From the IMG/VR virus record IMGVR_UViG_3300034374_005070, positions 1-26,558 of that record: DNA of 26,558 bases; one strand, 5' to 3'. The translations under genes and the position numbers were made by a program. This DNA is from a virus. Below the pieces are notes generated by a model, which was not told the origin of the DNA, did no database searches, and saw nothing but the letters and a program-made list of their open reading frames with translations. Shown here piece after piece: positions 11,245 through 18,972 of this stretch. Each line of letters opens with the position of its first letter. Position 1 is the stretch's first letter.

Positions 11245-12035
11245 CCATCAACTACGCAATGAGCAACGAGGAATACCACCTTGACCCGTCGCTGTCGGCG
11301 TCCGGCGCCAAGACGATCGCGCTGCAGTCGCTGGCGCATTACAAATACGCCGAGCGCAAGGCGTCGACCGCATTCGATGTAGGCACGGCCACGCACACGC
11401 TGATCCTTGAGCCGCACTTGGCCAACACCGTGTGGTGCGGCCCAGAGACGCGCCGCGGCAAGGAGTGGTCTGAACGCAAGACCGAGGCAGAGGCCAACGG
11501 CGCACTGCTGCTGACCGAGGGCGACTATCACACCTCCGTCCGCATGGCCGAGGCGGTGCGATCAAACGCCGCGGCGGCTGAGCTGTTGGGCGGCGACCTC
11601 GTGGTCGAGGCCAGCGTGTTCGGACACGACAGCATCTACGGCGTCGACGTGCGCTGCCGCCCGGACGGATGGCGCAAGGACATCGCAGCCATTGTGGATG
11701 TAAAGACGACGATCGACCCGTCGCCGCAGGGCTTCGCAAAAGCCGTGGCCAACTTTGGCTACCACATCCAAGATCAATTCTACCGCCGCACGATGATGCT
11801 CAACGGTTTCGAGATTGACCGTTTCATCTTCATCGCTGTTGGTAAGGAGGCGCCGCACCCTGTCGGCGTCTACGAACTCGACTGGCGCTCTCTCGAGGAG
11901 GGTAATGCGGCGGTCAAGTATGCGCTTGAGCAATTTGCTCACGCGCAAAAGACGGGCGAGTGGGGCTACGGGTATGGAGACCTTCAGACACTCCAGATCC
12001 CGCCCTACTCGTTCAAATTCACTAAGGCGACATAG
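11241..12035 (+). CDS. RecB-like PD-(D/E)XK exonuclease
   Basis: 264 residues from ATG 11241, coupled (ATGA) to the resolvase and preceded by GGAAGAGGGAAAGC; an earlier in-frame ATG lies deep in the upstream gene. The GTATHTLILEP segment and the active-site series RCRPDGW (D142), IVDVKTT (D153, K155) and YHIQDQFYRR (Q177, Y181) fit the phage exonuclease/DUF3799-type branch of the RecB-like fold. It would resect double-strand ends to give 3' tails. With the ssDNA-binding protein next door it could act in a strand-annealing recombination system, although no annealase was recognised. Confidence 0.85.
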   Translation: MTINYAMSNEEYHLDPSLSASGAKTIALQSLAHYKYAERKASTAFDVGTATHTLILEPHLANTVWCGPETRRGKEWSERKTEAEANGALLLTEGDYHTSVRMAEAVRSNAAAAELLGGDLVVEASVFGHDSIYGVDVRCRPDGWRKDIAAIVDVKTTIDPSPQGFAKAVANFGYHIQDQFYRRTMMLNGFEIDRFIFIAVGKEAPHPVGVYELDWRSLEEGNAAVKYALEQFAHAQKTGEWGYGYGDLQTLQIPPYSFKFTKAT

Positions 12036-12048
12036 TCAGGAGACACAC

Positions 12049-12633
12049 ATGCCTATCACTTTCGGAAGCAACAACGACGCAGGCGCTGGCCTGTTCATCC
12101 GCGCAAACCTGCCACAGAACCGCTGGTGGACCAAGACCGAGAACGGCGAGGAGCCGATCGACATGGATCGCGGTTTCGCCATCGACATCAAAAACGTCGT
12201 ATTCGGCTGGCTGAACATCGACATCGGTGTGCGCGACTGGCAGCCGTGGCCGTCGCCGTCTCAGCAGATCCCAAAGCCGAGCGACAACCACAAAAACGGC
12301 TTTGAGGTGGATTGCTGGCTGGCGGACGGCCGCAAGGCGCAGTTCAGCGGCAACTCGTATGGCTTGGGGCAGTTCATCGCCAAGCTGTATAACCAAGCCG
12401 AAACTATGCCAGAGTTTGCTATGGGCAAGGTGCCGGTGATCCAGATCACCAGCAGCAAGCCTATTGTCGTGGGCAAGGGCACGTCATACGATGTGGGCTT
12501 CGTAATCCGCACATGGATTAACCGCCCCGCCGATGGCGCCGCCCCGGCGCAGCCAGCACCCGTAGCGGCACCGCAGCCTGCGCCCGCACCCGCACAAGCA
12601 CCAGCTGCAGGAGGCACAGACTTCGGCTTCTAA
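12049..12633 (+). CDS. Putative phage single-stranded DNA-binding protein
   Basis: 194 residues from ATG 12049 (CAGGAGACACAC upstream). Residues 1-155 form a beta-rich domain (RWWTKTENGEEP, then VVFGWLNIDIGVRDWQPWPS and VIQITSSKPIVVGKGTSYDV) of the type found in phage ssDNA-binding proteins. A Pro/Ala-rich linker (about 158-187) follows, then the tip GGTDFGF. The order barrel, flexible linker, terminal aromatic tip parallels SSB and T7 gp2.5, but the tip has only one acidic residue. It sits between exonuclease and primase-helicase, supporting the role. Confidence 0.7.
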   Translation: MPITFGSNNDAGAGLFIRANLPQNRWWTKTENGEEPIDMDRGFAIDIKNVVFGWLNIDIGVRDWQPWPSPSQQIPKPSDNHKNGFEVDCWLADGRKAQFSGNSYGLGQFIAKLYNQAETMPEFAMGKVPVIQITSSKPIVVGKGTSYDVGFVIRTWINRPADGAAPAQPAPVAAPQPAPAPAQAPAAGGTDFGF

Positions 12634-12639
12634 GCCACA

Positions 12640-12666
12640 CGGGCGCTCCGCGATGTGGGGCGCCCG
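12640..12666 (+). other. Intercistronic GC-rich hairpin
   Basis: CGGGCGC (12640-12646) pairs perfectly with GCGCCCG (12660-12666) around a 13-base loop; there is no T-run. It lies between the ssDNA-binding and primase genes and would enclose a GTG at 12655, which argues for the ATG at 12691 as the primase start. Confidence 0.55.
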
Positions 12667-12690
12667 CCACATTTAACTTGGGATGAACAA

Positions 12691-14883
12691 ATGTCTGAAG
12701 CATATTTCCACAGGGTGCGAGAGAACGTCGCCGCAGACGTCATGCACGCTGGCAAGGGTGGGCGCAACGAAACGCTAAACAAGGCAGCATTCACGCTCGG
12801 GCGGCATGCCCACTTGGCTCCGGCGCAGCTTGATGCCGCCATCATCGAATTACACGCGGCCGCGCGGCAGGCGGGCCTCAACGACATCGAGATCAAGTCA
12901 ACAATCGGCAGCGGATTAAAGCGCGGCGGCGAGAACCCAAAGGTGCTGGAGAACTCGGACGCGGTGCCATACACGCCGAGCGAGTTCGACCGCCTCATCA
13001 CGCGGCTCGCTGCCAAGGATCTGCTGGCCAAGGACGACGAGACGCGCGACGAGAAGATACGCAAGGCGCGCGAGACGTGGGATCGCAGCGTGCCGATCAC
13101 ACGCGAAAACATAGACGCGGTGCGCCCGGCGCTGCTGTATCTCAACAGCCGCAGCCTGCGCGCCAGCACCGCGACGGAGATCGCGCGGTTCAGCCCCAAC
13201 GTATACGACGGGCCGGCGATCATCTTTCCCGCCGTTAACGAGCTGGGCGAGGTGCAAGGCATCCAGAGCGTGCTGCTGACAAACGACGGCAAGAAACGCG
13301 AACACAACGGCATCAGCAAATACTCGCGCGGCGCGCTGGTGGGCAACGTCATGCGCATCGGCAACGCCGGACCGATCATCATGGTCGAGGGGCCAGAGGA
13401 CGCGCTGAGCCTTCGCCAAGCGGTGCATGGCCACGCAGAGGCGACCATCGTCTGCACATTCGGCAAGTCCGGCATGCAGACATACAACGTGCCGCGCGCA
13501 TCCGACGTGACGATCTGCGCAGATCCAGATCTGGACGTGGACGCGGTGGCCGATGTCCTGCGCGGCGACGGGTCGACGTCGGTCAGCGTGGTGCGCTTCG
13601 ACAGGCTCGGCGTGGAGAACGTCAAGGATGCCAACGACTATCTGAAAGAGGCCGGCGAGGACAAGCTGCGCGAGGCGCTCAGCCAAGCCAGACCCGTGGA
13701 CGAGGTGCGCCAGCAGGAGATCAGCGAGGCGCGGCAGTGGCCGACGCCGTTTGAGTGGATCGACCCGGCGTCGATACCGAAGCGGCGCTGGATCTACGGC
13801 ACGCACTACGTGCGATCGTATGTCAGCGTGCTGGCGTCAGCGGGCGGCGCGGGCAAGACGTCGCTGCAAACCGTGGAGGCGCTCAGCATTGTTACAGGGC
13901 GCGAGCTGCTCAGGGAGCCAGTGAAAGAGCAGTGCAACGTGTGGATGGTGAACCTCGAAGACCCGATGGAGGAGATGCAGCGTCGCCTCATGGCGGCGTG
14001 CATGTATTACAACGTCAAGCCGGACGAGATCCGCGGGCGGCTGTTCCTCGACGCGGGCCGCGACATGCAGATCAAGTTCGCGGCGCAGGGGCGTGACGGC
14101 ATCAGCATCGACGACGAGCTGGTCGACTACATGATTGACAAGGTCAAGCAAAACAACATCGGCCTCGTGTTCATTGACCCGTGGGTTGGCGCCAACGAGA
14201 TCAGCGAGAACGACAACGTCGCCATGAACGCAGCCGTCGCGGCGGTGCGCCGCGTTGCAGACGAGACCGACGCGGCCATCGTGCTGGTGCATCACATCCG
14301 CAAGGCCAACGGCGAGGAAGCCACGGTGGACCACATCCGCGGCGCGGGGTCGCTGATCGGGGCGGCGCGCGCGGCGCGGGTCATCAACAAGGTGTCGCCG
14401 GATGACGTGATGAAGCTGGGCGTGAGCGAGACGGAGGCGCAGGGCGTGTTTCGCGTGGACGATGCCAAGGCGAACTTGGCGCCGCCGGCAGCGCAGGCGA
14501 CTTACAGGCGCATGGTCGGGTATCAGTTGCCAAACGGCGAATACGTGGGCGTGGCGACGGAGTTCAAGATGCCGGACCTGTTCGACGGCATCACGGCCAA
14601 AGATGCGCGCAAGGTGCAGAAACTTGTCGGCGAGGCGGCGCAGGGCGACGACCCGTTCCGCCAGAACGTGCAGGCGAGGCAGTGGGTGGGCCATTGCGTC
14701 GCGGAGGTGCTGGGGCTGGATCTCAGCGAAAAGCAGGGCAAAGCCAAGACGAAGGCGATCATCAAGACGTGGATCGAGAAGGACGTGCTGCGCAATGACG
14801 TGTGGCCGAGCAAGCGTGACGGCCGCGACGTGCCAGTCGTGGTCGTGGGCAAGTGGATAACTGCAGAGGAGGCGGGGCTGTGA
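12691..14883 (+). CDS. Primase-helicase: TOPRIM plus RepA/DnaB-like ATPase
   Basis: 730 residues from ATG 12691; a GTG at 12655 would add 12. The N-terminus (1-85) resembles a PriCT-type helical domain (EIKSTIGSGLKRGGENP). Residues 220-320 are a TOPRIM domain: E233 in MVEGPEDALS and the acidic pair in CADPDLD. Residues 370-560 are a RecA-like motor: Walker A SAGGAGKTS (383-391), Walker B LVFIDP (492-497), and HHIRK (534-538), then RGAGSLIGAARAARV, typical of RepA-type hexameric helicases. No CHC2 zinc finger is seen. It should unwind DNA and prime replication. No DNA polymerase gene accompanies it in the window. Confidence 0.85.
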   Translation: MSEAYFHRVRENVAADVMHAGKGGRNETLNKAAFTLGRHAHLAPAQLDAAIIELHAAARQAGLNDIEIKSTIGSGLKRGGENPKVLENSDAVPYTPSEFDRLITRLAAKDLLAKDDETRDEKIRKARETWDRSVPITRENIDAVRPALLYLNSRSLRASTATEIARFSPNVYDGPAIIFPAVNELGEVQGIQSVLLTNDGKKREHNGISKYSRGALVGNVMRIGNAGPIIMVEGPEDALSLRQAVHGHAEATIVCTFGKSGMQTYNVPRASDVTICADPDLDVDAVADVLRGDGSTSVSVVRFDRLGVENVKDANDYLKEAGEDKLREALSQARPVDEVRQQEISEARQWPTPFEWIDPASIPKRRWIYGTHYVRSYVSVLASAGGAGKTSLQTVEALSIVTGRELLREPVKEQCNVWMVNLEDPMEEMQRRLMAACMYYNVKPDEIRGRLFLDAGRDMQIKFAAQGRDGISIDDELVDYMIDKVKQNNIGLVFIDPWVGANEISENDNVAMNAAVAAVRRVADETDAAIVLVHHIRKANGEEATVDHIRGAGSLIGAARAARVINKVSPDDVMKLGVSETEAQGVFRVDDAKANLAPPAAQATYRRMVGYQLPNGEYVGVATEFKMPDLFDGITAKDARKVQKLVGEAAQGDDPFRQNVQARQWVGHCVAEVLGLDLSEKQGKAKTKAIIKTWIEKDVLRNDVWPSKRDGRDVPVVVVGKWITAEEAGL

Positions 14884-15317
14884 GCAGGCCATACTACGAG
14901 ACGCAAGCGGATCGTGACAACGAGCAGGCATTGGCGCGCATCGTCGAGCAGCATTACCGCTGCCAGCTGACCAAAATGCCGATAAAGCTGCAGCTCGACT
15001 ACATGGCAACCAGAGACGGGAAGGCCGTGGCATTCGTGGAGATGCGGCACAGGCGCAACTCAATGCACGCCTTCCCGACATACATGGTCGGCCTGCACAA
15101 GTGCCTCATGGCCAAGCAGCTGACGCTGGTGACGGGGCTGCCTTCGATGCTCGCCGTCCGGTGGACGGATGCCGTCGGGATAACTAAGCTGCCGCCAGAC
15201 GAAATGGACGTGCAGCTGGGTGGCACGGTGAGGCGTGGCGACGCGCAAGACATCGAGCCGATGGTGTATTTTGACGTGGCCAAGTTTCGTGTGCTGGAGG
15301 TGCCGAGTGCAACATGA
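14880..15317 (+). CDS. Hypothetical replication-operon protein, possible degenerate PD-(D/E)XK
   Basis: 145 residues from a GTG at 14880 that overlaps the primase stop (GTGA), with GAGGAGGCGGGGCT upstream. The segment LQLDYMATRDGKAVAFVEMR has an acidic residue on one strand and E-x-R on the next, like a PD-(D/E)XK core in which Lys is replaced by Arg; LAVRWTDAVGI later could be another strand. This may be a VRR-NUC-like or inactive relative, but the assignment is weak. Its coupling to the primase suggests a replication or recombination accessory role. Confidence 0.55.
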   Translation: MSRPYYETQADRDNEQALARIVEQHYRCQLTKMPIKLQLDYMATRDGKAVAFVEMRHRRNSMHAFPTYMVGLHKCLMAKQLTLVTGLPSMLAVRWTDAVGITKLPPDEMDVQLGGTVRRGDAQDIEPMVYFDVAKFRVLEVPSAT

Positions 15318-15336
15318 CGACGGGGAGGGCGTGCCG

Positions 15337-15564
15337 ATGGATGACTTGCGGCTGGTGGGCCAGATCATGTGGAGCGATGAGGGCGACGAGGCGTTCATCA
15401 GCTGGTCTCCGGAATTCTCGCTGGCGAAGGCCGAGGTGACGCTGGAGCGTTACGCCGCGCTGTCGAAGATGCTTGTCGACGTGCTGTGGGAAATCGACAT
15501 GGCCATGGAGCTGCTGGACGGGGTGCTTAATCCGACGCTGCAGGGTAGCGACGAGGTGCATTGA
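15337..15564 (+). CDS. Small hypothetical protein
   Basis: 75 residues from ATG 15337, preceded by GGGGAGGG at suitable spacing. A GTG at 15307 with GGAGG six bases upstream would overlap the previous gene and is nearly as good. The protein is acidic and mostly helical (MDDLRLVGQIMWSDEGDEAF; then ERYAALSKMLVDVLWEIDMA). Last gene of the replication operon, followed by the iteron-bearing gap. Family not recognised. Confidence 0.6.
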   Translation: MDDLRLVGQIMWSDEGDEAFISWSPEFSLAKAEVTLERYAALSKMLVDVLWEIDMAMELLDGVLNPTLQGSDEVH

Positions 15565-15565
15565 T

Positions 15566-15584
15566 GTGTGAACAATGTGTTAAC
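15566..15584 (+). promoter_or_regulatory. Tandem GTGTGAAC/GTGTTAAC operator
   Basis: GTGTGAAC (15566-15573) and GTGTTAAC (15577-15584) repeat with the same 11-bp period as the pair before the early operon (4401-4419), suggesting the same DNA-binding dimer. Confidence 0.5.
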
Positions 15585-15729
15585 CGCACCACGAAAAACA
15601 AGGTGCGGAGGACTGCCGAAGGTGCGGAAATATTCCGTAAAACCGCTCTCCGCACCGCACCCTCTATAGGGGTGCGGGGTGCGGTGCGGAATTAGCGCGG
15701 ACTGCTGGATGTGCGGTCTCAAGGTGCGG
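15584..15729. repeat. Cluster of nine GGTGCGG iterons with central dyad
   Basis: Copies on the plus strand are at 15602, 15621, 15671, 15678, 15683 and 15723 (7 bases each); on the minus strand at 15584-15590, 15650-15656 and 15655-15661. The inner block 15650-15689 can fold: CCGCACCGCACCC pairs with GGGTGC and GGTGCGG across TCTATA. Iteron clusters of this type mark origins or autoregulatory operators. Confidence 0.75.
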
Positions 15730-15737
15730 TTAGCAGA

Positions 15738-15745
15738 GTGTTAAC
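15738..15745 (+). promoter_or_regulatory. GTGTTAAC site before the packaging operon
   Basis: A single octamer in GTGTTAACAT, 26 bases upstream of the ATG at 15771. No good -35 was seen at the proper distance, so it may be an operator or a phage-specific promoter element. Confidence 0.4.
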
Positions 15746-15770
15746 ATAGCTGGCGAAGTGGAGTTATATC

Positions 15771-16364
15771 ATGGCCAAGGGAATGGCGAAGAAGAGGATG
15801 ACGAAGAGCGAGGCGATGCGCAAGGGCGGGCCGCTTGGCGAGGAGGGCGAGAAGATCTCGGCGAACGTGTGGGGTCAGCTGGCTCCGCTCGATCGTGTGG
15901 CGCGGGAGAAGATGGCGAGGTGGGGTGACACGTTGCCGTCTCTGGTGCCGCCTGATCTCGCTGGCCGCTTTGAGGCGGCATACGACGCGCTGCGGGTGTT
16001 CGTGGAGGCGAACGACGCGCCGAAGGTTCACGAGATAGCGGGGCAGCTGATGCGCGCGTGGGACGTGCTGGAGAAGGCGGCGCTGGACGCTGGACATAAG
16101 CCGCTGCCGCCGCATGCGTATTGCGTGGACACTGGTGACGGGATCGTGTGCTTCGCGCTGACGGGTGCGGTGGATATCAGGCAGGCGCATCCAGAGTGGG
16201 CGGTGTATAGCTTCGAGGACGCCGCGTGCGTGCTGAAGCGTGATTTCAGTGAGAACTTTCTCAAGGAAGCCTTCGCGGCGTTTCCGAGTGCGAAAGTGAC
16301 CAAGGTGATCGGGGGCGAGGATTATGTTAATCTGGACCTCGGTGGAGACGACATTCCGTTTTGA
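15771..16364 (+). CDS. Hypothetical protein with SSB-like DDIPF C-terminus
   Basis: 197 residues; ATG follows GTGGAGTTATATC. A basic N-terminal tail (MAKGMAKKRMTKSEAMRKGG) precedes a helical region (about 30-105) and a small alpha/beta domain (YCVDTGDGIVCFALTG and HPEWAVYSFEDAACVL). The last residues are LDLGGDDIPF; the DDIPF tip is identical to the C-terminal end of E. coli SSB, which recruits PriA, RecO, Exo I and other partners. The fold does not look like SSB, and the phage's probable ssDNA-binding protein lacks this tip. It may recruit host replication proteins or compete with host SSB. Family not recognised. Confidence 0.7.
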   Translation: MAKGMAKKRMTKSEAMRKGGPLGEEGEKISANVWGQLAPLDRVAREKMARWGDTLPSLVPPDLAGRFEAAYDALRVFVEANDAPKVHEIAGQLMRAWDVLEKAALDAGHKPLPPHAYCVDTGDGIVCFALTGAVDIRQAHPEWAVYSFEDAACVLKRDFSENFLKEAFAAFPSAKVTKVIGGEDYVNLDLGGDDIPF

Positions 16365-16375
16365 GAGGATAGACG

Positions 16376-16651
16376 ATGAAGCGTGGAGACTTTTTAGAGG
16401 AGGCGTTCAGGTGCATCACGGTTGACCGTGCGGCGACACATGGAGGCGCGGAGGACAGCTTCGGCGCCATAGCGAGCATGTGGTCAACGTATCTCGGTGC
16501 GACCGTGACGGCGCAGGACGTGTGCATGATGATGACGCTGCTCAAGGTGGTGCGTTACAAGAACACGCCGGGTCACGCAGATCACGCGGTGGACATCTGC
16601 GGCTACGCGGCGATCGCTGGTGAACTTGGCCAAGGAGGCAACGATGGGTGA
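16376..16651 (+). CDS. DUF6378-like phage protein
   Basis: 91 residues; ATG follows GAGAGGATAGACG. The pattern TVDRAATHGGAEDSFGAIAS then VTAQDVCMMMTLLKVVRYKN, HADHAVDICGYAAIAGE matches what I recall of DUF6378, a small helical protein family common in phages of Proteobacteria. The conserved His and Asp residues (THG, HADHAVD) could bind a metal or nucleotide, and the fold resembles MazG-like helical hydrolases; that is speculation. It overlaps the TerS start by 8 bases. Confidence 0.75.
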   Translation: MKRGDFLEEAFRCITVDRAATHGGAEDSFGAIASMWSTYLGATVTAQDVCMMMTLLKVVRYKNTPGHADHAVDICGYAAIAGELGQGGNDG

Positions 16652-17099
16652 GATAGGCAACGCAAAGCTGGCTGCTCTGGATCAGGCAGGCGAGGAGGAG
16701 CTGTTCGAGAAGCTGACGACAGGCACGAGCGTGACGGACTTGATCCGCGAACACAACGTGGGATGGAAGCTGTGGTATCGCTGGCTCGATAGCGCTCAGG
16801 GGCGCAGGCAGCGCTATCAGGAGGCGCTGGACATGGCGGGGCATTTCTACGCTGCACGGGCTGTGCAGACCGCTCAGCAGGCTGACGTTGGCTCTGTGAA
16901 CGTGGCGAGGCTGCAAGTGGATACGGACAAGTGGTATGCGGCTAAGCTGAACCAGCAATACGATACGCGTCAGCGAGACGTGGCCGTGAACATCAGCGTG
17001 ACCGATCTGCACGCGCAGGCGGCGGCACTGCTGGCGAGTGTGCAAGTGAACGACGACGTGATCGAGGGCGAGTGGAGCGAGAGCGAGGATGACGTGTGA
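16644..17099 (+). CDS. terS: Terminase small subunit
   Basis: 151 residues from ATG 16644, set by AAGGAGGCAACG. The helix-turn-helix-like N-terminal part (LFEKLTTGTSVTDLIREHN, then WKLWYRWLDS) followed by AALDMAGHFYAARAVQ-like helices and VARLQVDTDKWYAAKLNQQ fits the Sf6-type small terminase family. It recognises the packaging site and loads TerL. It lies upstream of TerL but is separated by a 442-base gap, which is unusual and may contain the packaging site. The end is acidic (EGEWSESEDDV). Confidence 0.8.
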   Translation: MGEIGNAKLAALDQAGEEELFEKLTTGTSVTDLIREHNVGWKLWYRWLDSAQGRRQRYQEALDMAGHFYAARAVQTAQQADVGSVNVARLQVDTDKWYAAKLNQQYDTRQRDVAVNISVTDLHAQAAALLASVQVNDDVIEGEWSESEDDV

Positions 17100-17201
17100 G
17101 AGGCGAAATCGCGCACCGATGCAGCGATGCGCAGACGCGTGCGCGCGTGCCATATCTTTACCACTTGGTCAAGATTTGACCGTTTGGTCAAGTTTTCGTG
17201 G

Positions 17202-17215
17202 GGTATCATGATACC
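17202..17215. repeat. Perfect 14-bp palindrome
   Basis: GGTATCATGATACC is fully self-complementary. It shares GTATCA/TGATAC half-sites with dyads at 5302-5318 and 8691-8707, but with no spacer. Confidence 0.7.
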
Positions 17216-17498
17216 ACTCTGCAGCGCAGCACGAACACAAGATGTAGTGTTGGACCGTTTCAAAGCGGTCCAAAAAGCGGTCCCGCAAAACGGTCCCGAC
17301 GCTAAGACGTTGAAAAGCAAGCATGTTTTCGCGTGGTTTGGTTCCTCTTGGGGGCACCAAACCGGTCCCGACGCCGCAGATGCTGAACATGTTAAGCATT
17401 TTCGCCAAAAAGCGCCCGATCGCGGTTTCGGAGGTCGCGTTTGGACCCCCCCTTCGACAGATCGACGCCGGTGCAAATGCAATGACCTCCCCACGCAT

Positions 17499-17523
17499 CC
17501 CCACCCCCACACCCCCCGCCCCC
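17499..17523 (-). other. G-quadruplex motif on the minus strand
   Basis: C runs of 4, 5, 6 and 5 bases (17499-17502, 17504-17508, 17512-17517, 17519-17523) give on the minus strand four G runs with loops of one, three and one base. It ends 18 bases before the TerL start. Confidence 0.7.
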
Positions 17524-17541
17524 TGTTAACGGAGATTTAAC

Positions 17542-18972
17542 ATGCCCCCGCAAAAAAATTTAGCGCAGCAAGAGAACCCCTTTGTCACGTTGATGCGCCG
17601 CTACCGCAACGACCCCGTGGCCTTCGCCGAGGAGGTCATCGGCATCACGCCTGACGAGTGGCAAGTTGAGCTGCTGGACGCCGTCGCCGCCCCCGCGATC
17701 AGGCGCATCAGCGTTCGCTCTGGCCACGGCGTCGGCAAGTCCACTGCGGTTGCCATGGCTGCGATCTGGCACGTCCTGATGCGCGTGCCGAGCAAGACGG
17801 TGGTCACGGCCCCCACGTCCGCGCAGCTGTTTGACGCGTGTTTCGCCGAGATGAAGAACGTGGCCAAGCGGCTCAAGCCCCCGTTCAACGACCTCCTCGA
17901 GGTCAAGTCTGACCGCATTGAGTTGAAAAGCAGCCCAGAAAGCACGTTTATTTCGGTGCGGACGTCGCGCGCCGAGCAGCCGGAGGCGCTGGCGGGCGTT
18001 CACAGCGAGAACGTGCTGCTGATTGCGGATGAGGCGTCGGGCGTGCCGAACGCGGTGTTCGAGGCCGCGTCCGGCTCGATGTCTGGCCACAATGCCACGA
18101 CGGTGCTGACCGGCAACCCCACGCGTAACACGGGCTTCTTTTACGACACGCACAACAGGCTCAAGTCTGACTGGTATACGATGCACGTTTCCTGCGTCAC
18201 CAGCCCCCGCGTCGCCGACGATTTCGTCGAGGACATGAAGAAGCGCTACGGCGAGGACAGCCCCGCGTATCATGTGCGCGTCCTTGGCAACTTTCCCCCG
18301 TCTGAAGAGGACACGGTTATTCCGGTGGCCTTGATTCAGCATGCCATGGCCAACACGATCAAGATCCACGAGGATACGGCCGCCGTGTGGGGTTTGGACG
18401 TGGCCCGGCAGGGCGGCGACAGCAGCGTGCTGGCGAAGAGGCAGGGGCCAGTGATCCACCCCGTCACGGTGTGGCGTAACCTCGACCTCATGCAGCTGAC
18501 GGGCGCCGTGAAGGCGGAATACGACGCCATGCCGCCGTCTAAGCGCCCCAGCGAGATCATCGTGGACAGTAACGGCTTTGGCGCTGGCGTCTTGGACCGC
18601 CTGCGCGAGCTGGGCTTGCCGGCGCGCGGCTTGAACGTGTCGGAGCGCGCCATGGCGAAGGACACGTATCTCAACTTGCGCGCGGAGCTGTGGTTCAAGT
18701 GCAAGGCGTGGCTCGAGGGCATGGACGTGTCTTTGCCGCGTGACGACGCCCTGTGGGCCGAGCTGGCGGCGCCACGGTATTTCTTCACCAGCGCGGGGAA
18801 GCTGCAGGTGGAGAGTAAGGAGGCGATGAAGAAGCGCGGCGTCGCCTCGCCAGACCGCGCCGATGCGGTGTGCCTGACCTTGGCCAACGACCACACGACG
18901 ATGGCATACGGCGTGTCGGCCAGCGGCGGATGGCAGAAGCCGCTGCGTCGTGGAATACGTGGGATTGTGTGA
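17542..18972 (+). CDS. terL: Terminase large subunit
   Basis: 476 residues; ATG follows CGGAGATTTAAC. The ATPase domain has Walker A SGHGVGKST (60-68) and Walker B VLLIADE (158-164, D163/E164). The RNase H-like nuclease has D286 (GLDVARQGGD), D342 (IIVDSNGFG) and D438/D441 (SPDRADAV). All key residues are present and length is normal for P22/Sf6-type terminases. It powers DNA into the procapsid through the portal and cuts the concatemer. A GTTAAC site and a C-rich block lie just upstream. Confidence 0.95.
   Translation: MPPQKNLAQQENPFVTLMRRYRNDPVAFAEEVIGITPDEWQVELLDAVAAPAIRRISVRSGHGVGKSTAVAMAAIWHVLMRVPSKTVVTAPTSAQLFDACFAEMKNVAKRLKPPFNDLLEVKSDRIELKSSPESTFISVRTSRAEQPEALAGVHSENVLLIADEASGVPNAVFEAASGSMSGHNATTVLTGNPTRNTGFFYDTHNRLKSDWYTMHVSCVTSPRVADDFVEDMKKRYGEDSPAYHVRVLGNFPPSEEDTVIPVALIQHAMANTIKIHEDTAAVWGLDVARQGGDSSVLAKRQGPVIHPVTVWRNLDLMQLTGAVKAEYDAMPPSKRPSEIIVDSNGFGAGVLDRLRELGLPARGLNVSERAMAKDTYLNLRAELWFKCKAWLEGMDVSLPRDDALWAELAAPRYFFTSAGKLQVESKEAMKKRGVASPDRADAVCLTLANDHTTMAYGVSASGGWQKPLRRGIRGIV

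Follow-up and report, generated by a model that had tools for sequence, protein, structure and literature searches.

Iteron–initiator pairs are known to diverge in specificity. The P4 alpha protein, described together with its origin, is a single polypeptide that combines primase, helicase and a winged helix, the last of which recognises the iterons of the origin (PMC4234260). SaPI Rep and SCCmec Cch2, from staphylococcal islands, are initiator helicases of the DUF927 or D5/Primase_Cterm type whose C-terminal domain reads short iterons just 3′ of their own gene; the passages of PMC7581432 on these systems describe no residue-to-base code. The IncQ plasmid RSF1010 relies on three proteins, RepA, RepB′ and RepC, which provide a RepA-type hexameric helicase, a dedicated primase and a separate iteron binder (RepC), and its oriV holds iterons and hairpin-forming inverted repeats whose hairpins serve the primase as single-strand initiation sites (PMC4234260). 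ORF904 of pRN1, a primase-helicase, has a winged helix at its C-terminus, and its gene is followed immediately by a palindromic element that is essential (PMC4234260). Closely related geminiviruses have come to differ in their iteron letters, which the cognate initiator Rep reads, and iteron identity has been reported to be non-essential for replication (PMC12548392).

Here we analyse a virus record of 26,558 bp (the window), part of a P22-like podovirus, in which GGTGCGG iterons lie downstream of a primase-helicase gene. As in P4 alpha, primase, helicase and winged helix are joined in one polypeptide (assigned by Pfam, and here by AlphaFold2), but the helicase is RepA/DnaB-like (AAA_25, with the RSF1010 RepA fold) rather than P4-type (SF3), the iterons differ, and recognition by the winged helix is here suggested by residue–base covariation. 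AAA_25 also sets the protein apart from SaPI Rep and Cch2. In the SaPI type the iterons follow the initiator gene directly. A matching arrangement is seen in 18 of 46 clusters (primase-helicases reduced to <90% identity), where the array starts ≤60 bp past the helicase stop codon, whereas the window has two small genes in between. The RepA-type helicase (recognised here by fold and sequence), the primase, the iterons and the inverted repeats, present here as a dyad, are shared with RSF1010; primase, helicase and putative binder are fused here. Unlike the present system, pRN1 lacks iterons and uses an SF3 helicase and an archaeo-eukaryotic primase, and geminivirus Rep is an unrelated rolling-circle protein of different fold. 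By analogy, the system would work like P4 alpha–ori and SaPI Rep–ori. We nevertheless place it in neither family because the helicase-family features fail, and we do not assign it to the RSF1010 type because the three-protein make-up is absent, although the helicase is common to both.

An iteron array upstream of the packaging operon

The portal, scaffold and major head proteins encoded in the window are P22-like; its other products include an ejection protein, an exonuclease, the primase-helicase, and a small and a large terminase. The features in and around the array are:

12655–14883, plus strand: primase-helicase, 742 aa, putative initiator (DUF7146, Toprim, RepA-like AAA_25 helicase, C-terminal winged helix)
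14853–15317, plus strand: PDDEXK endonuclease-like gene (Pfam PDDEXK_14)
15235–15564, plus strand: 109-aa ORF preceding the array, no family assigned
15577–15584, plus strand: GTGTTAAC at the left edge of the array
15584–15729, no strand: iteron array, putative replication origin (nine GGTGCGG and TGTGCGG at 15710; array of the same layout in relatives)
15602, 15621, 15671, 15678, 15683 and 15723, plus strand: GGTGCGG copies
15584, 15650 and 15655, minus strand: GGTGCGG copies
15649–15690, no strand: central dyad, inverted iterons around TCTATAGGGG
15738–15745, plus strand: GTGTTAAC, 33 bp upstream of the next gene, presumed promoter-like element of the packaging operon
15771–16364, plus strand: first gene past the array (gp15771), kept in relatives, opens the packaging operon
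16620–17099, plus strand: small terminase, Sf6-like, tested as alternative binder and lacking a matching column
17542–18972, plus strand: large terminase

The array begins 20 bp past the stop codon (15564) of the 109-aa ORF, the primase-helicase gene having ended at 14883. Its 146 bp hold nine exact GGTGCGG copies (six plus, three minus), and a tenth copy, TGTGCGG, has one mismatch and keeps the GTGCGG core. Across the window the heptamer occurs 21 times against 7.3 ± 2.6 in shuffled sequence, and none of 100 shuffles reached 21. The arms of the dyad (15649–15662 and 15677–15690) are 14 bp each, 100% complementary and spaced by 14 nt, and the fold of the array strand stands well above shuffles (z −5.3). 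The dyad was also considered as an intrinsic terminator and rejected because it has no T run. A scan for sigma-70 promoters found none, and the one terminator-like site lies outside the array.

The original prediction had described nine copies on these strands, a density beyond chance (9 in 146 bp, 21 against 7.3 in the window), a foldable dyad at the centre (perfect 14-bp arms, z as above) and flanking GTGTTAAC sites (found at 15577 and 15738), all of which the exact positions bear out. Its statement that the cluster directly follows the replication operon was looser: the array does lie downstream of the primase-helicase gene, but the PDDEXK nuclease gene and the 109-aa ORF intervene.

We note that GTGTTAAC occurs five times in the window (4401, 4412, 10612, 15577 and 15738), every time between genes. 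Four of the five sites lie ~30–50 bp upstream of a start codon and the fifth marks the left edge of the array; the motif probably serves the phage as a promoter element or a regulator site. Further downstream, positions 16376–16651 receive the PHROGs family label "phosphofructokinase", which is probably wrong because Pfam finds DUF6378 only.

Relatives keep the layout of the array and change its letters

The comparison covered 80 terminase relatives and further primase-helicase relatives. Close copies of the window retain GGTGCGG, and relatives whose primase-helicase is ~62–74% identical carry in the same gap an array built to the same plan, in which left iterons and a spacer precede a central palindrome flanked by inverted iterons, with right iterons beyond it. 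The core of the relatives' dyads is an AT-rich palindrome, for example TACGTATATATACGTA or TAGCGTATATAATACGCTA, and the window's core (CTCTATAGGGG) falls below these in AT content. Iteron letters are swapped in all or nearly all copies of an array together, yielding GTGAGG, ACTGAGG, GTGTGG, ACTGTGG, ACTGCGG or GTGGGG. Distant phages found through the dyad alone have their array directly 3′ of a primase-helicase gene whose product is 36–45% identical, and in all 46 clusters the array starts ≤1.7 kb downstream of the helicase gene. Each of the five near-complete genomes contains exactly one array.

The original prediction proposed comparing this gap in related phages and held that loss of the repeats from close relatives in which the gene order is unchanged would speak against it. 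GGTGCGG is indeed gone from most relatives, yet a one-letter variant substitutes for it copy for copy. Loss of the repeat is therefore a misleading guide, because the variant iterons that replace GGTGCGG change along with residue 722 in the primase-helicase. One array per genome, a constant layout, and letters that covary with one residue are strongly supported observations.

Residue 722 tracks the variable iteron base

The protein positions that bear on this covariation are encoded as follows:

14566–14880, plus strand: C-terminal winged-helix domain, residues 638–742, putative iteron binder (AlphaFold2 model)
14662–14673, plus strand: codons of residues 670–673, whose columns covary most closely with the first base of the iteron (Q673 with G, R673 with C)
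14818–14820, plus strand: Asp722 codon; this wing-tip residue (KR-D-GR) is the predictor of the variable iteron base, D going with C

The variable base of GTGNGG follows residue 722: Asp or Glu goes with C, Gln with A, Ala, Thr, His or Ser with T, and Lys or Arg with G. Among 33 distinct training primase-helicases, column 722 accounted for the full class entropy (MI/H(class) 1.00; Asp–C, Gln–A, Ala/Thr/His–T), and across the 46 clusters it again reached 1.00, with 0.47 for the next best column. The rule was right in 53 of 55 held-out, newly fetched loci, the two failures forming one clade with Gln722 and GTGGGG. A wing could be parsed in 227 loci; 205 of them have a clear array, and every one of these 205 obeys the rule. 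On the tree, the base class switched at least 19 times. Independent pairs agree throughout (T 8/8, p = 0.008; A 6/6, p = 0.03; C 5/5; G 4/4).

The fourth letter, G with Lys or Arg, was added from a scan of distant relatives. This part of the rule was framed after some of the data had been seen, and its clean test consists of predictions recorded in advance. All seven held for the variable base: T in L353, which carries Thr at residue 722, and G in L337, L323, L326, L316, L329 and L377, which carry Lys. The arrays of the last five were scored with a widened pattern, GTGGG followed by A or G, since the strict [GC]TGNGG misses them.

Most pairings match known preferences between side chains and bases, namely Gln for A, Lys or Arg for G, Asp or Glu for C, and small or methyl-bearing residues for T; we know of no textbook pairing of His with T. 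Two groups depart from the rule, the L134 clade (Gln722 with GTGGGG, plus Ala at 719) and L336/L370 (an Arg722 wing with GGTGTGCA repeats), and both lie under the array threshold and outside the counts of 205 and 46. In a second wing form without G/A-R (R-X-x-R/K), which was surveyed only, the pairings Lys–G, Arg–G and Glu–C recur, while His, Met and Gln fit poorly. In L025, L026 and L027, GTTAGG/GTAAGG and GTGAGG copies occur within the same array, and L026 has the wing KRQGK in place of KRQGR; these are perhaps origins caught in mid-transition.

For the first iteron base (G or C), the best-covarying residues are 673 (Gln with G, Arg with C), 671 and 670. The two bases are thus tracked by separate patches of a single putative DNA-binding domain. 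In other proteins the best columns reach smaller fractions of the class entropy: 0.57 in gp15771, 0.51 in the small terminase and 0.49 in the large terminase. The protein encoded at 11815–12633 reaches 0.80 on only 18 sequences with highly variable residues, too few rows for the value to carry weight.

Because the array is physically tied to the end of the helicase gene, joint exchange of the two is expected, and letter changes might merely reflect linked recombination of such a cassette around a partition or DNA-organising site. Recombination of this kind would lift many C-terminal columns, yet the second-ranked column stays far below residue 722, and within the close sets L074/L078 and L010/L017/L019 the letter and residue 722 both differ. 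We give this explanation hardly any credence. The covariation instead argues strongly that the primase-helicase is the protein that binds the iterons. We consider it probable that a family-wide code exists among RepA-type (primase-)helicase initiators of phages and plasmids, in which a single wing-tip residue reads one iteron base, in all four letters, and origins switch specificity by one residue and a concerted one-letter change. No earlier description of such a system or code was found in the open-licence literature searched.

The natural switches point repeatedly to the same one residue and one base. If the code is true, close relatives would have mutually exclusive origin types, and the origin would be predictable from protein sequence. 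Questions about the evolution of origin specificity would become directly testable, such as how ten copies come to change in concert or whether closely related phages turn orthogonal. The code would also offer a route to locating origins in phage genomes known only from metagenomes.

A predicted winged helix carries residue 722

Pfam recognises DUF7146, Toprim_3 and AAA_25 in the primase-helicase. Its helicase domain is RepA-like, matching 1g8y by sequence (E 4e-4) and by structure comparison (TMt 0.82). For residues 638–742, AlphaFold2 predicts a winged helix (pTM 0.80, pLDDT 88) with helices at 648–663, 678–686 and 693–708 and a beta hairpin at 712–731, whose tip (719–724) bears residue 722. 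A Foldseek search with this domain alone gave no match at E<0.001. VIA-align 2 placed RecQ-type RQC domains (BLM, RECQ1) on top at a middling score (Z 7.8), and no solved iteron-initiator domain was among the matches listed. The covariation suggests an iteron-binding role for the C-terminal domain, a proposed function in a little-studied family that so far carries just the labels "DNA primase" or "AAA family ATPase".

Arrays on plasmids and in other phages

The family spans uncultivated podoviruses, other phages and alphaproteobacterial plasmids. A nucleotide search of the phage collection with 14500–17600 gave no match. The primase-helicase has two distant matches among phages, and the closer, in Rhizobium phage RHph_X2_26, has neither the KR-x-GR wing nor a matching array. 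Sinorhizobium phage phiM5, two Manatee Spring phages and Phage C72C1 have the terminase in common with the window and different replication modules; no such array was found in the first 700 bp 3′ of repA in the two Manatee Spring phages. Outside the viral collection, the nearest primase-helicase (92% identity) lies on an Opitutae metagenome-assembled genome contig, a weak hint at a verrucomicrobial host.

Three plasmids, Microvirga terrae pR24_3, M. lotononidis unnamed3 and Methylobacterium indicum pVL1_6, encode primase and helicase separately, and the array lies 3′ of the RepA-type helicase gene. On a Rhodoplanes plasmid that carries phage genes, this position after the RepA-type helicase gene is occupied by GGTGACGC iterons. 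We note that M. lotononidis unnamed3 also carries repB/repC besides helicase-primase and array, and may therefore have two replicons.

These loci bear on whether the array might serve in packaging, as a pac/cos-like site for the small terminase, whose gene lies ~0.9 kb downstream. Repeat arrays near terS serve this purpose in some phages, and in the window the array stands at the head of the packaging operon. Yet no TerS or TerL column tracks the letters (0.51 and 0.49 at best, against 1.00 for residue 722). In phage locus L102 the array follows the helicase gene although the terminase is of a different family and several genes away, and the Microvirga and Methylobacterium plasmids have no terminase annotated beside the array, contrary to the constant company of a terminase operon that marks pac and cos sites. 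A packaging site is thus highly improbable.

The array as a probable replication origin

The first choice of the original prediction, an origin to which a phage initiator binds, agrees best with the data, and covariation of residue 722 with the iterons names the 742-aa primase-helicase as the likely initiator. Given the identity of the binder, the anatomy of the array and the analogy to P4 alpha, SaPI Rep, SCCmec Cch2, RSF1010 and pRN1, the array is very probably a phage replication origin bound by a self-targeting initiator that unites primase and RepA-type helicase.

We infer physical binding, helicase loading, priming and a bidirectional start. The C-terminal winged helix of the primase-helicase encoded upstream would grip each 7–8 bp iteron, its wing tip (residue 722) reading the fourth base of GTGNGG and residues ~670–673 the first; on a GGTGCGGAA duplex, residue 722 is expected in the major groove at the fourth base, with 670–673 near the first. 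Inverted iterons at the central dyad would pair copies head to head, and the RepA-type hexameric helicase would be loaded at the AT-rich or palindromic core, which is expected to melt. The fused Toprim primase would thereby be placed to prime both strands.

Counting against an origin are the GC skew, which is monotonic in the five near-complete genomes and the window, shows no turn at the array and is uninformative, the two exception clades, the less AT-rich core of the window, and the two genes between initiator gene and array.

The original prediction also allowed for an operator of the packaging operon. In that case the primase-helicase, or a fragment of it, would repress or activate the packaging/late promoter to the right of the array, and replication would start elsewhere. 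A promoter-like TTAAC(A) lies next to the last iteron, 30–40 bp upstream of the next start codon, in the window and in many relatives, and iterons often double as operators, so that a second role of this kind is possible. As the sole function it is improbable: a primase-helicase as binder, the dyad symmetry and one array per genome suit an origin better, and the same array occurs on plasmids with quite different downstream genes.

Alongside this proposed origin, we note a small extra gene in L316, L323, L326, L329, L337 and L377, located ~20–500 bp past the primase-helicase stop codon and before the GTGGG array. Its product resembles a stand-alone winged helix with wings such as SKKGRDIPIY and TRRGRGLPIY, and is a possible RepC-like second iteron binder.
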